From: Mediterraneibacter massiliensis
GTDB taxonomy: Bacteria; Bacillota; Clostridia; Lachnospirales; Lachnospiraceae
Reading direction: 5' to 3'
Length of the DNA: 64,000 bases
Assembly: GCF_001487105.1 (NCBI RefSeq)
Contig: NZ_LN913000.1
Coordinates: 620,001 to 684,000, forward strand
Part shown: piece after piece, positions 21,209 through 26,098 of the stretch
How the letters are laid out: each line of letters begins with the position of its first letter
How positions within the stretch are numbered: the stretch's first letter is position 1
Notes under the pieces: model-generated
Seen by the model: the letters and a program-made list of their open reading frames with translations, nothing else
Databases searched by the model: none
What the model was told of the DNA's origin: nothing
Position numbers and translations under genes: made by a program

Positions 21209-22183
21209 ATGATGAAGAAAGAGGTTTATTTGAAAAATGTGGCTGAGAGTTTGGCCTTATTAAGTCGGGAAGTGTCTATCTTGAATGCGGTAAATCTCTA
21301 TGATATTAACATCGTTGCAGAAGATTTCTTTCCCGGATTGTTGAATCTTATCTATGGATATGAATTGAAAAATGCAAACTATGTGGAGAAAAATGCACCT
21401 GCGATTGATTTGGTAGATCCAAAGAATCGGATAGCAGTTCAAGTCACATCGGATAATAGCAGTACAAAGATTAAGCATACAATAGAAGAATTTAACAAAA
21501 ACAAATCATATCAGAGTTATGATAGATTGATTGTGCTGATTTTAACACAGAAGAAAAAATATTCTTCCAATTTTGATACACAGGGAATGTTTTCATTTGA
21601 AAAAGAAAGAGACATTTGGGATGTAGAAAAACTGATGCAAGATGTTCGAGAGTTGGAAACAGAACAAATAAAAGCAATCAGTAATTACCTGTCAGCAGAA
21701 TTGTGTAATAAATATTATTCAGTGAAAGAAACGCAGGCCAGTGAAGTGGACACGATCATAGATTTGATAGAGTATATTTCGCAACACAGAAAAGTAAAGA
21801 AGCCTTGTGAGACAACGGTAGATCCGGAGTATAAGATTTATAAAAGGTTTCGGGATTTTGCAGATAGATTGATTGCGGAATATACGACACTTTACACCAT
21901 TTATGGGGAAGCGTTGAAGATTGTAAATGAAACGCTGGGGATCGATGAGGCACAAGACATTATTATTATGTTCTATCTGCAGGATATCAGCGTACAATTT
22001 TTGGAAGAAGAGCAGGATAATCCGATTGCTGCATTGAATAAACTGGTTACATATTTTGAAACAAAATTAAGCGCGAATGGTAAAAAGTATGACCGTTCTG
22101 CAATTAAATTTTATCTTGTCAACGAAATGATTAAATGCAGGGTATTCCCAAACGAAAGGAGTGAGTATGATGCTGGCAAGTAG
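21209..22183 (+). CDS. ABC-3C system SMEK-domain protein
   Basis: A 324-aa component of an ABC-three-component conflict system. The first 150 residues match what I know of the SMEK domain: YLKNVAESLALLSREVSILNAVNLYDINIVAEDFF, then AIDLVDPKNRIAVQVTSDNSSTKIKHTIEEF, a fold related to nuclease/effector-linked regions. The rest is helical. The next two genes are the small middle component and the SMC-like ATPase, in the standard order with overlaps. The base composition is more A/T-rich than the surrounding transfer genes. Anti-invader function is the published proposal for this class; the effector mechanism here is not visible. Confidence 0.78.
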   Translation: MMKKEVYLKNVAESLALLSREVSILNAVNLYDINIVAEDFFPGLLNLIYGYELKNANYVEKNAPAIDLVDPKNRIAVQVTSDNSSTKIKHTIEEFNKNKSYQSYDRLIVLILTQKKKYSSNFDTQGMFSFEKERDIWDVEKLMQDVRELETEQIKAISNYLSAELCNKYYSVKETQASEVDTIIDLIEYISQHRKVKKPCETTVDPEYKIYKRFRDFADRLIAEYTTLYTIYGEALKIVNETLGIDEAQDIIIMFYLQDISVQFLEEEQDNPIAALNKLVTYFETKLSANGKKYDRSAIKFYLVNEMIKCRVFPNERSEYDAGK

Positions 22184-22397
22184 CAATGCACTGAAATCTT
22201 CCGCAATGTATATTGGCTATCTCATACTCAAAGAGATACAAAAACAGGAAGCAGGAAAGATTTCTATTTATGATGTATCTAAAGCATTAAAAAAGGCGGG
22301 GATTACAAGCAGCAGACAGTTGATTTTGGGTCTTTCCTTTTTGTATTCTGTTAATATTGTCGAATTTGAGGAGGCGAATATATGGGTAAAGAAATAA
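22167..22397 (+). CDS. ABC-3C middle component
   Basis: A 76-aa linker of the three-gene system. The start at 22167 is favoured by AAAGGA 6 bases upstream; a GTG at 22161 is also in frame. It overlaps the SMEK gene by 17 bases and the ATPase gene by 16. The pattern (SAMYIGYLILKEI; KISIYDVSKALKKAGI; QLILGLSFLYSVNIVEF) resembles a winged-helix subunit, as in the small middle components that bridge ATPase and effector. Confidence 0.75.
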   Translation: MMLASSNALKSSAMYIGYLILKEIQKQEAGKISIYDVSKALKKAGITSSRQLILGLSFLYSVNIVEFEEANIWVKK

Positions 22398-24139
22398 GTC
22401 GTATTCGTCTCAATCGGCTCTATTCAGAAAGTAATATTTTTGAAGAGATTTCTTTTCATGACGGAGTCAATATTATATTAGGCGAGAAATACGATGATAA
22501 TTCTGTAAAAGGTCGGAAAACAAATGGTGTTGGAAAGTCTATGAGTATTGAGTTTTTAGATTTTGGTTTCTTGAATGATTATGAAAAATCAAGAATTGCA
22601 AAAATACCGAAAGAAGTATTTCCGTTAGAAGAAAACGTAATATTAGATCTGGATATAGGGGACGAAGCGATCACGATAAAAAGAAACCGGAAACAAGCGG
22701 ATCAGCCTGTAATCATAAGAGAAGGGAGAACGGTATCTTTTGATAAACTTCAGGATGCAAGAGAATATCTGACAGGGCTTATTTTCCCAAAATTAAATGG
22801 GAAGAAAGTACCTAGTTTCAGAAATCTCTTTTCAATTTTGATGCGGGATGAACGTTCGGAATTTACAGATATCATCAAATGCCATGATTTGACGAAAAAG
22901 ATTCCGGATGATTTGAGCGCTCATTTGTTTTTGTTGGGATTTTCTTTAGAGGCATATAAAAACACTTTAGAAACTATAAAGGAGATAGAGGCAGTCAATA
23001 CCGTTATTGCAAAAGATAAAAAAGAATTGACGCAAGAAGGAAAAAAGAAAATTTCAGATGTTAAGGCAGAATTAAATGCATTGGAAGATGAATTACAAAA
23101 ATTGGAAGATGCGATTGAAAGTTTTAAAACGAATGAGACTTTTGATTCTATGGAGGCAGACCTTATTGAACTGGAGGATTTGCTGGATCAGTTGCGTAAA
23201 CGCCAAAAGGCTTTGCGATATGACTATGAAAAAATCAGAAAAATGCCAAAGCCGGAGCAGATTGATGACAGAGAAATCGAATTGGTCTATAACCAATTTA
23301 AGAGCGAGTTGGGAAATGCAGTAGTAAAATCTTTAAATGAGGTCGTAGGTTTTAAGAACAAGATAGAAGAATTCCAAAGAACATTGGTAAACCAAAAGGC
23401 AAAGGAATTGGAGAGCCAATTGAAAAGTATTGCGGAACAAATTCGGGTACTGGATGATGAATATTCAGAGAAACTGAAAGTCATCGATAAAAAAGGAGTG
23501 CTAAAGAATCTAAAAGTAAGTTTAAAGATTTATGAGGCGAAGAAGGATTCTATTTCTCATACGAAGTTTTTGTTTGATCAATACGAAAAGAATGAGAAAA
23601 AGAAAAGAATGCTGAATTTACAAAAAACTCAGCAACTCATGGAAATTGATAGTGAGATTGAGCAAAACAAAGAAATCATGGATGACTTTATTGATACCAT
23701 TTTGGAAATCCATGAATCCATTATGGGAAATAAGGAATGTTCGTTTAGCATCCAGACTGTTGATAAGGCACGAAAGAAAACACCAGTTGAGTTGACGCTT
23801 CGTATTTACGATGATGGAAGCCATAGTGTAGACAGAACAAAGGTGTTCATTTATGATATGGCGTTATTATTTAATCAATACACCAGAGACAGGCATCCGT
23901 TGTTTTTGGTACATGACAACATTTTCGATGTGGATCAAGATACGTTAGTTCAATGTTTAAATTATATTTATAAGCAGGAAGAGCAGTATCAGGATTTTCA
24001 ATATATCCTTACGTTGAATCGGGATAAAATCGAAAATGAAGAACAGCGGAAATTAATCCAGATGGATATTGATGAACATCAGGTAGCTGTGTTTACGAAA
24101 GAAAAGAAATTTTTAGGACGGAACTATCAGGAAAAATAG
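22382..24139 (+). CDS. ABC-3C SMC-like ATPase (DUF2326 type)
   Basis: A 585-aa ABC/SMC-type ATPase. The N-terminal half has an unusual Walker A, with GVNIILGEKYDD then an insertion before TNGVGKSMSIEFLDF (near residues 44-62). A long coiled coil spans roughly residues 200-450. The C-terminal lobe has Walker B LFLVHDNIFDVDQDTL (near residue 505), the DUF2326 signature that replaces the usual DEP with HDN. Such proteins sense DNA or replication intermediates and trigger a partner effector. It ends the three-gene operon; the ATG follows GAGGAGGCG. No adjacent nuclease is seen outside the SMEK protein. Confidence 0.82.
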   Translation: MGKEISRIRLNRLYSESNIFEEISFHDGVNIILGEKYDDNSVKGRKTNGVGKSMSIEFLDFGFLNDYEKSRIAKIPKEVFPLEENVILDLDIGDEAITIKRNRKQADQPVIIREGRTVSFDKLQDAREYLTGLIFPKLNGKKVPSFRNLFSILMRDERSEFTDIIKCHDLTKKIPDDLSAHLFLLGFSLEAYKNTLETIKEIEAVNTVIAKDKKELTQEGKKKISDVKAELNALEDELQKLEDAIESFKTNETFDSMEADLIELEDLLDQLRKRQKALRYDYEKIRKMPKPEQIDDREIELVYNQFKSELGNAVVKSLNEVVGFKNKIEEFQRTLVNQKAKELESQLKSIAEQIRVLDDEYSEKLKVIDKKGVLKNLKVSLKIYEAKKDSISHTKFLFDQYEKNEKKKRMLNLQKTQQLMEIDSEIEQNKEIMDDFIDTILEIHESIMGNKECSFSIQTVDKARKKTPVELTLRIYDDGSHSVDRTKVFIYDMALLFNQYTRDRHPLFLVHDNIFDVDQDTLVQCLNYIYKQEEQYQDFQYILTLNRDKIENEEQRKLIQMDIDEHQVAVFTKEKKFLGRNYQEK

Positions 24140-24185: not shown

Positions 24186-24377
24186 ATGCATTTAAGAAAA
24201 GCAGCGGAAGATGTTTCAATTTTGAAAATGCGGCGTTCTATTAATGCGGATACTATGACGAAAGAAGAACTTCACCAGAAATTGGAAACAGGATACCGAG
24301 ATATTGGGAAGGAAAGAGTGAGAAACGCTTCGGAGGCTTTCGAAGAATGTCAGAGGAAATGTGAACCCAGCGAATAG
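24186..24377 (+). CDS. Antitoxin-like small protein
   Basis: A 63-aa protein starting after GGAGGT. Its second half (ADTMTKEELHQKLETGYRDIGKERVRNASEAFEECQRK) resembles the C-terminus of RelB/Phd-type antitoxins, the part that wraps a toxin. The N-terminal DNA-binding half is short, so it may be truncated. No toxin gene lies next to it; the next gene resembles another antitoxin family. Likely an orphan antitoxin or remnant. Confidence 0.5.
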   Translation: MHLRKAAEDVSILKMRRSINADTMTKEELHQKLETGYRDIGKERVRNASEAFEECQRKCEPSE

Positions 24378-24392
24378 TGGAAGGATGGAAAT

Positions 24393-24587
24393 ATGCAGAT
24401 TGTGATTGAAATACCGAAAGCTGTTTTATTTGATGGCAAGTATACGGTAGAACAAGCAACTAATTTTGCAAAGAAAGAAGTTGCACTTGGATTCTATATG
24501 CAAAAGGGGGTGTCAGTGGCACTATGTTCACAGATTGCAGGTATGTCGGAGGAAGAATTCTTAGTAGAAGTAAAGGATAGGAAATAA
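24393..24587 (+). CDS. UPF0175-like antitoxin family protein
   Basis: A 64-aa protein with the pattern IPKAVLFDGKYTVEQATNFAKKEVALGFYMQKGVSVALCSQIAGMSEEEFLVEV, shared with UPF0175 (a small HTH-like family often paired with PIN-domain toxins). It has an AAGGA ribosome site 15 bases after the preceding gene. No PIN or other toxin follows; a strong promoter for a structured RNA begins 4 bases after its stop. Confidence 0.6.
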   Translation: MQIVIEIPKAVLFDGKYTVEQATNFAKKEVALGFYMQKGVSVALCSQIAGMSEEEFLVEVKDRK

Positions 24588-24590
24588 CCT

Positions 24591-24619
24591 TTGACAAATT
24601 TGTAAAAAAAAGGTATGAT
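24591..24619 (+). promoter_or_regulatory. Near-consensus promoter of the structured RNA
   Basis: TTGACA at 24591-24596, exactly 17 bases, then TATGAT at 24614-24619. Transcription should start near 24626. It directly follows the stop codon of the UPF0175-like gene. Confidence 0.8.
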
Positions 24620-24625
24620 AAAAAA

Positions 24626-24816
24626 CGATCGCACTACAGAAACTTGTGAAGCCTGTAGTCCGGAAGGTTTCTTCGGGAACCTTTCGTTAAATATGATGGA
24701 ATCATGATTAAACTTCACAGTGAAGTAATTAAAAACTGTGAGAAGTGAAAAAAACGAAGCCGTAGGACCGCAAGGTATAGCTTCTGGAGGCTCCCCATTT
24801 TATCTGGGGAGTTTTT
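24626..24816 (+). ncRNA. Structured RNA of about 190 nt, family not recognised
   Basis: No protein frame fits here, but the transcript would fold into a chain of hairpins: ACTACAG/CTGTAGT (24633-24639 with 24653-24659); an 8-bp stem capped by a UUCG tetraloop (24664-24683); ATGAT/ATCAT (24693-24705); CTTCACAG with CTGTGAGAAG (24713-24745); GAAGC/GCTTC enclosing ACC-GCAA-GGT with a GNRA loop (24756-24784); and a terminator. It has its own strong promoter. No open frame, SAM-riboswitch or T-box consensus is seen. It sits before metK but ends in its own terminator, so it is more likely a trans-acting or antisense-type RNA than a leader, although attenuation of the downstream operon is possible. 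Confidence 0.75.
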
Positions 24817-24820
24817 CTTT
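24791..24820 (+). terminator. Terminator of the structured RNA
   Basis: CTCCCCA at 24791-24797 pairs with TGGGGAG at 24805-24811, followed by TTTTTCTTTT. A second smaller palindrome, TATCATG-TT-CATGATA, follows at 24821-24836. Confidence 0.85.
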
Positions 24821-24870: not shown

Positions 24871-24917
24871 AGGCAGGATATGTTCCCGTAAAAAGGAAGG
24901 TATCCTGTCTTTTTTGC
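24871..24917 (+). terminator. Hairpin with T-run ahead of metK
   Basis: GGCAGGATA near 24872 pairs with TATCCTGTC near 24901-24909, followed by TTTTTTG. It resembles an attenuator in the leader of the metK-toprim operon; the metK ATG follows within 25 bases. Confidence 0.6.
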
Positions 24918-24937: not shown

Positions 24938-26098
24938 ATGAGAAAATTTTATACAGCAGAAGCAGTAACAGAAGGACACCCGGACAAAGTGTGCGACCAG
25001 ATTGCAGATGCAATCCTGGATGTGTGTCTGAAAAATGATGCGGATTCCAAGGTGGCTTGTGAAGTGCTTGCCACGAAGGGAACTGTCATTGTGGCAGGAG
25101 AGATCACCAGCACCTATGAACCGGATGTGTTTGGTGTGATCCAGAAAGTATTGTCTGAAGTGGGATATTCCAGCGAAGGGGTTGCCATGGATACGTTTGT
25201 CCATCAGCAGAGTCCGGACATTGCCAATGCGGTCAGGGAATCCAAAGAAAAAAGGGAAGGGGTGTCTGACAATCAAATGGATTGGTTTCAAGGTGCCGGG
25301 GATCAGGGCGTCATGATCGGATATGCCTGTGATGAGACATCGCAGCTGATGCCCATGCCTGTGGTGCTTGCAAATAGGATTGTCCGGGAACTGTCTGCCT
25401 GTAGAAGAAGCAGCTATATTGAAGGAATCTGCCCGGATGGAAAAGCACAGGTGACGGTAGAGTATGAGGATGGGAAGCCTGTCCGTTTGGATAGTGTGGT
25501 TGTATCCTGTCAGCATACGGAAGATAAGAATCTGAAGAAACTGGAAGCAGAGATCCGAAAAAAGGTGCTTCTTCCGGCACTTCGTCTTCTTCCGCCGGAT
25601 GATGATACCAAGATCCTTATCAATCCATCCGGACGTTTTGTCTGTGGAGGCATGGATGCAGATACGGGACTGACAGGAAGAAAACTGATGGTAGACAGCT
25701 ATGGCAGTATCGTTCCCCATGGCGGTGGGGCATTTTCCGGAAAGGATTGTTCAAAAGTGGACCGTTCTGGGGCATATATGGCAAGGTATATTGCCAAAAA
25801 TATGGTCGCTGCCGGACTTGCCAGCAAGTGTCAGGTTTCCCTTGCCTACGCCATAGGTGTTGCCCAGCCTGTTATGGTTCAGGTGGATACGTTTGGCACA
25901 GGAAACGTGTGTGCGGATGACTGTCTGGAAATGGCGATCCCCTTGGTGTTTGGACTGACACCAAAGCAGATCGTAGATACGCTGCGCCTTACCCGTCCCA
26001 TTTTCCGGCAGACAGCAGCTTTTGGACATTTTGGAAGAAAGGAACTGCCATGGGAGCGCACCGATAAGGCAGAACAGCTCCGCAATGCGGTGATCTGA
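24938..26098 (+). CDS. metK: S-adenosylmethionine synthetase (element-borne)
   Basis: Makes SAM from methionine and ATP in the cytoplasm. The 386-aa protein shows the ATP/Mg motif EGHPDKVCDQIADAILD at the N-terminus, GAGDQGVMIGYA (methionine-binding loop) and the P-loop-like signature GGGAFSGKDCSKVDRSGAYMARY. All parts of a complete enzyme are present. The ATG at 24938 with AGAGAGGAAA upstream is preferred over the one at 24914. It overlaps the toprim gene (TGATG), so it is in an operon inside the conjugative element. Two DNA methyltransferases lie in the same element, so a local SAM supply is an attractive explanation. It may be diverged from the host copy: several core positions differ from the usual consensus. 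Confidence 0.92.
   Translation: MRKFYTAEAVTEGHPDKVCDQIADAILDVCLKNDADSKVACEVLATKGTVIVAGEITSTYEPDVFGVIQKVLSEVGYSSEGVAMDTFVHQQSPDIANAVRESKEKREGVSDNQMDWFQGAGDQGVMIGYACDETSQLMPMPVVLANRIVRELSACRRSSYIEGICPDGKAQVTVEYEDGKPVRLDSVVVSCQHTEDKNLKKLEAEIRKKVLLPALRLLPPDDDTKILINPSGRFVCGGMDADTGLTGRKLMVDSYGSIVPHGGGAFSGKDCSKVDRSGAYMARYIAKNMVAAGLASKCQVSLAYAIGVAQPVMVQVDTFGTGNVCADDCLEMAIPLVFGLTPKQIVDTLRLTRPIFRQTAAFGHFGRKELPWERTDKAEQLRNAVI

Follow-up and report, generated by a model that had tools for sequence, protein, structure and literature searches.

Among the described systems closest to the RNA considered here is AbiF-RCd22 of the C. difficile prophage phi027, in which a small RNA is cotranscribed with the toxin, transcription mostly stopping at a terminator, and in which RCd22 binds and neutralises AbiF both in cis and in trans; breakage of the stems of this RNA abolishes neutralisation, whereas compensatory stem changes do not, so that structure counts for more than stem sequence (PMC12373285). 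AbiF toxins and their RNAs have been proposed as ancestors of Cas13 and guide RNAs, and the structure of the PbAbiF-AbiFr complex (PDB code 8vz6) comes from that Cas13-ancestor study, which two papers cite (PMC12373285, PMC12737573). The study of the Cas13 origin may already contain RNAs of the clade described below. The pseudo-ToxI of phage PhiTE is an antitoxin RNA carried by a mobile element in the absence of a toxin, and its function has been shown (PMC3475682).

The window, a stretch of 64,000 nucleotides of the Mediterraneibacter massiliensis genome (contig NZ_LN913000.1), includes, inside an integrative element, a non-coding locus just upstream of the metK gene of the element. The original prediction had placed there a promoter, about 190 bases devoid of reading frames, six hairpins (including those with UUCG and GCAA loops) and a terminator, flanked by orphan antitoxin-like genes and metK, and the analysis bears out this description. 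The features of the locus are as follows:

24393–24587, strand +, UPF0175 family gene (PF03683), 64 aa, orphan antitoxin-like
24591–24619, strand +, sigma-70-type promoter TTGACA-17-TATGAT; start of transcription expected near 24626
24622–24698, strand +, 5' module, very probable AbiF-type antitoxin RNA, found by covariance model R1 (85.9 bits, E 5.7e-28)
24633–24659, strand +, H1: 7-bp stem, AAA internal loop, 3-bp inner stem, loop G-N-G, core GAAACUUGNGAAGCC; covariation
24662–24685, strand +, H2: 10-bp hairpin with a UUCG loop; covariation
24687–24711, strand +, H3: A/T-rich hairpin where the 5' and 3' modules meet; fold prediction, window only
24714–24742, strand +, H4: predicted stem CUUCACAGU/ACUGUGAG, opening the 3' module
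24756–24784, strand +, H5: GAAGC..GCUUC hairpin with inner ACC-GCAA-GGU; predicted fold, near-identical in nine aligned copies
24786–24816, strand +, H6: intrinsic terminator, hairpin and T-run; sequence, predicted fold and relatives
24938–26098, strand +, metK of the element (TIGR01034), with its own leader terminator at 24872–24915

The promoter hexamers match 11 of the 12 consensus positions. The predicted transcript (24626–24818, 193 nt) folds with an energy of −61.7 kcal/mol (z −4.2), a value reached by none of 200 shuffled sequences, and no convincing reading frame was found inside it. The six predicted hairpins are not equally supported: H1 and H2 show covariation and H4–H6 are conserved or re-formed in relatives, but the alignment of the four records that share the whole RNA, the window among them, indicates that H3 is not retained in the other copies. 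A pairing between the H1 loop and an arm of H4 (UGUGAAG/CUUCACA), noticed by eye in the window, was rejected, as it is not kept in two of these records (L013 and L028). Rfam searches with the window RNA revealed no family at gathering scores and, with the limit relaxed to E = 10, only implausible matches, in line with the statement that no known riboswitch is recognisable there.

A BLAST search of 99 related genomes found a full-length copy of the RNA in genome G034 (91% identity), as well as separate matches to query bases 37–99 and 162–230, located about 770–800 bases apart in G017 and G034, with a PemK-like gene (PF02452, E 4.5e-17) between the two pieces at the loci read. The halves of the query match apart, with a gene between them, and the window RNA is thus composite. 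PemK was considered as the regular partner of the RNA and rejected, having given one partial match in 397 genomes. In G043 (L012), the 5' piece occurs alone, and an intact Abi_2 gene (PF07751, E 4.5e-45) immediately follows it. A search with the pattern of the conserved core matched 24 contigs of named genomes, mostly of Lachnospiraceae, and in most of them the start of an Abi_2 gene is no more than about 135 bases away from the core. The usual place of the 5' module is between a promoter and the Abi_2 gene.

Twenty-seven distinct copies of the 5' module align well. The structure composed of H1 and H2 is paired in 98.7% of the alignment cells, a proportion flattered by the structure having been drawn on the same sequences, and it shows two-sided changes in 12 of its 20 pairs, which the same circumstance does not inflate to this degree. 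The covariation score is 0.371 compared with 0.191 in shuffled alignments (0 of 500 as high), and all slid controls collapse. Considered separately, H1 has two-sided changes in five of the seven outer pairs (99.5% of cells paired) and H2 in seven of ten (98.5%); compensatory changes, which the original prediction had named as a means of checking the RNA, are thus present. The core of H1 is conserved while its stem covaries, as would be expected of an AbiF-type antitoxin RNA.

The covariance model R1 was built from these 27 sequences, with the window sequence among them, and the family was also recovered independently of the model by BLAST and the pattern search. The match at 24622–24698 is the only significant one within the window, and 73 of the 397 genomes of the bacterial family contain matches. 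Seventy matches, chosen by the RNA model alone, score 40 bits or more; an Abi_2 frame of at least 280 aa lies directly downstream in 33 of them and an Abi_2 fragment in 13 (gene or fragment, 46/70); 23 are devoid of Abi_2 and one is at a contig end, and in only 1 of the 70 is Abi_2 located upstream. Weak matches (below about 35 bits) beside coding ends (L123, L126–L128) resemble chance terminators and were excluded from the counts. The 5' module is therefore very probably a member of a widespread Abi_2-linked family of antitoxin-type RNAs in Lachnospiraceae. The suggestion that the RNA might be part of a toxin–antitoxin pair is supported for its 5' half, whose family accompanies AbiF/AbiD (Abi_2) toxins in dozens of relatives, but the toxin itself is absent here.

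Several arrangements of R1-type RNAs stand apart from this pattern. Two loci have an Abi_2 gene with a copy of the same RNA on either side (L044, 230–307 and 1320–1397; L067, 1501–1578 and 2567–2644). In L092 an R1-type RNA precedes a nucleotidyltransferase pair and, in L075 and L097, a kinase-like protein with a zeta-toxin-like look and no Pfam match, which suggests that partners were exchanged or that RNAs were left behind. Scans of IMG/VR for exact patterns of the RNA gave no match; none of the plasmids searched has it and, among phages, it was found in one fragment record only. This record, MT840023.1 (L039), bears the label Bacteriophage sp. but seems to be a piece of the integrative element discussed here and not evidence of a phage.

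The layout of the locus resembles that of AbiF-RCd22, which consists of a SigA-type promoter, a short structured RNA and a terminator, followed, in the RCd22 locus, by an Abi_2 gene. RCd22 comprises two RF03085 motifs and is accompanied by a toxin, while the window RNA has one module unmatched in Rfam, an extra 3' module and no toxin. A short hairpin, an internal loop, a 3-bp inner stem and a place upstream of Abi_2 are shared with RF03085 (the abiF RNA motif); on the other hand, the 3' side of RF03085 bulges by 6 nt and its conserved letters are different, and the window RNA has AAA on the 5' side together with its own conserved core. Membership in RF03085 was rejected, no match being obtained at the RNA, either in the window or in the genomes that have a copy. 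As a positive control, RF03085 gave 33.4 bits (below the curated cut-off) at L132:1908–1947, before a second, different Abi_2 gene. As RF03085 detects that RNA but fails on the window RNA, the latter is assigned to a separate RNA family, presumably with a similar task. The sequence family of the 5' module is absent from Rfam; RNA antitoxins of AbiF toxins as such are already known (PMC12373285), and the label "undescribed" given by the original prediction is appropriate in the first respect and not in the second.

No Abi_2 HEPN toxin gene was found in the window downstream of the RNA, while such genes are present in L012, in dozens of relatives and in the corresponding element of Blautia sp. 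Marseille-P3201 (L027). The L027 toxin is recognised by PADLOC as AbiD (E 3.5e-64) and matches the protein of the 8vz6 AbiF–ncRNA complex (E 1.9e-10); the likeness of the window locus to that complex, in which a homologous toxin is bound by a small RNA, rests on this protein, which the window does not have. The cargo site, with metK as its fixed right-hand flank in the window, L009, L027 and L131, is occupied differently in the related elements: UPF0175 fragment, RNA, AbiF and metK in L027; UPF0175, RNA, PemK, 3' module and metK in L009; ABC-three-component type genes, UPF0175, the 5' module joined to the 3' module, and metK in the window. The usual neighbour of UPF0175, DUF3368, is also absent here and present at the same site in L131. 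The window locus thus is not a complete AbiF/AbiD RNA-antitoxin (type III-like) system, having the RNA family, the promoter and the terminator, and lacking the toxin. Since Abi_2 is the regular partner of the 5' module, loss in the window is the simpler reading, and the sequence comparison makes it likely, with little doubt, that the toxin was lost from this element; the direction, deletion here as opposed to insertion elsewhere, is argued from the regularity of the partner and not from a tree.

Two small orphan antitoxin-like genes occupy 24186–24587. Directly upstream (21209–24139) are defence genes of the ABC-three-component type (SMEK domain, MC6, DUF2326 ATPase; PADLOC PDC-M68B), and genes of this type adjoin the fused RNA in L028, too.

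If the toxin is gone, the RNA may be a decaying remnant, the promoter, RNA and terminator having outlasted the deletion as non-functional leftovers. This main rival explanation retains a considerable, though minority, probability. It agrees with the fragmentary (13/70) or missing (23/70) Abi_2 behind R1-type RNAs, with the L011 locus broken by IS200 and with the absence of conservation in H3 and the linker; about a third of the R1 matches being devoid of a downstream Abi_2, the RNA often outlasts its toxin, and its persistence is no sure sign of function. The recurrence of the fused form bears on the same question. The 5' and 3' modules are joined in four records, namely the window, G034 (L013), M. 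agrestimuris (L028) and the metagenome fragment filed as a phage (L039). L013 and L039 hardly differ from each other, which leaves at most two independent comparisons. Both modules differ from those of the window by 3–5%, compared with 8–20% in the promoter region, in the linker and in the intergenic DNA that follows (Fisher test, p 0.006 with L013, 0.04 with L028). The promoter hexamers are identical in all four records, while the 40 bases around them differ by 15–20%, and the H1 core and H2 are intact as well, which speaks against decay. The neighbouring coding genes differ from those of the window by 0–10%, and the constraint on the modules is therefore evident only relative to the non-coding flanks.

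Overall, the somewhat favoured reading takes the window RNA for an AbiF/AbiD-type (Abi_2, HEPN ribonuclease) antitoxin RNA that has become an orphan, is fused to a second structured RNA and serves as an antidote in trans. H2 occupies the position of the terminator that separates the RNA from the toxin in relatives, and its T-tract is weak in the clade of the window; transcription would read past this weak stop to H6, giving a transcript of about 190 nt. The conserved H1 core would still bind Abi_2 toxins and block their RNase activity, and the RNA would act in trans against the AbiF of the host or of a rival element. The antidote has a possible target because the host chromosome carries an AbiF: an intact Abi_2 gene and an RNA of the R1 family are present there, as in the genome of L028, while the sole Abi_2 found in G034 is broken. 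The host gene occupies about 406.4–407.3 kb of G000:C4. With only 42% identity between the AbiF proteins of the host and of L027, cross-recognition is uncertain, and from these comparisons the chances that the RNA is still active in trans may be put at even or marginally better. Pseudo-ToxI shares with the window RNA the combination of an antitoxin RNA, a mobile element and no toxin; it differs in that the ToxI repeats and ToxN are unrelated to the window RNA and AbiF, and in that the function of the window RNA is inferred. The results add a large, Rfam-invisible RNA family that pairs with one clade of Abi_2 in gut Lachnospiraceae and often occurs without a toxin; activity of the solitary copies, if real, would make bare antitoxin RNAs a counter-defence of mobile elements, comparable to the ToxI of phage PhiTE.

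The 3' module (H4, the GCAA hairpin and the terminator) is a separate structured RNA. The following copies represent a candidate structured RNA absent from Rfam:

L009:2003–2141, 3' module copy
L010:1890–2029, 3' module copy
L131:1506–1644, 3' module copy
L132:1428–1566, 3' module copy
L133:1428–1566, 3' module copy
L134:1505–1643, 3' module copy

H5 and H6 are alike almost letter for letter in nine copies, H5 being the best conserved part, and the position of H4 is occupied by a stem of different sequence in L009 (predicted) and, by eye, also in L010, L131, L132 and L134. Perhaps the 3' module is a second antitoxin-like RNA, and the fused RNA could then serve against two toxins, the 5' module neutralising AbiF and the 3' module a toxin of the PemK or DUF3368 type. 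The module does lie downstream of PemK in L009 and L010, where a separate TTGACA-17-TATAAT promoter serves it, after a broken PemK in L134 and after UPF0175-DUF3368 in L131, and no gene for a protein antitoxin immediately precedes the PemK gene of L009. However, the module also occurs without a PemK or DUF3368 gene (L132, L133) and follows PemK instead of preceding it, unlike in type III systems, and PemK is not known to have an RNA antitoxin; the two-toxin explanation is thus improbable. Similarly speculative is the broader idea that the element retains a solitary AbiF antitoxin RNA as counter-defence, fused to a second antitoxin-like RNA, one transcript disarming two toxins that are unrelated to each other and belong to hosts or rival elements.

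The favoured reading, an orphan antidote RNA, also has to be compared with the regulatory roles that the original prediction had proposed. A leader RNA controlling metK is suggested by metK being the next gene downstream and by the 3' module also preceding metK in L009 and L131, but L027 has metK without the 3' module, L132 and L133 have the module without metK, and the 5' module is mostly ahead of Abi_2, being found without metK in most genomes. Moreover, the strong terminator of the RNA and a second, separate terminator hairpin lie between the RNA and metK; with neither an Rfam aptamer match nor a consistent metK linkage, the leader explanation is very unlikely. An antisense regulator of transfer, copy-number or entry-exclusion genes would suit the location within the element and the hairpin loops, and complementarity was sought accordingly, but exact complementarity to other parts of the window extends over no more than 11–13 bases, mostly outside the conserved H1 core, which leaves this role hardly credible.

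The terminator hairpin at 24872–24915 (GGCAGGATA...TATCCTG, followed by a T-run), just before metK, is conserved in L009, L010, L013, L027, L028 and L131, and is possibly a metK attenuator.
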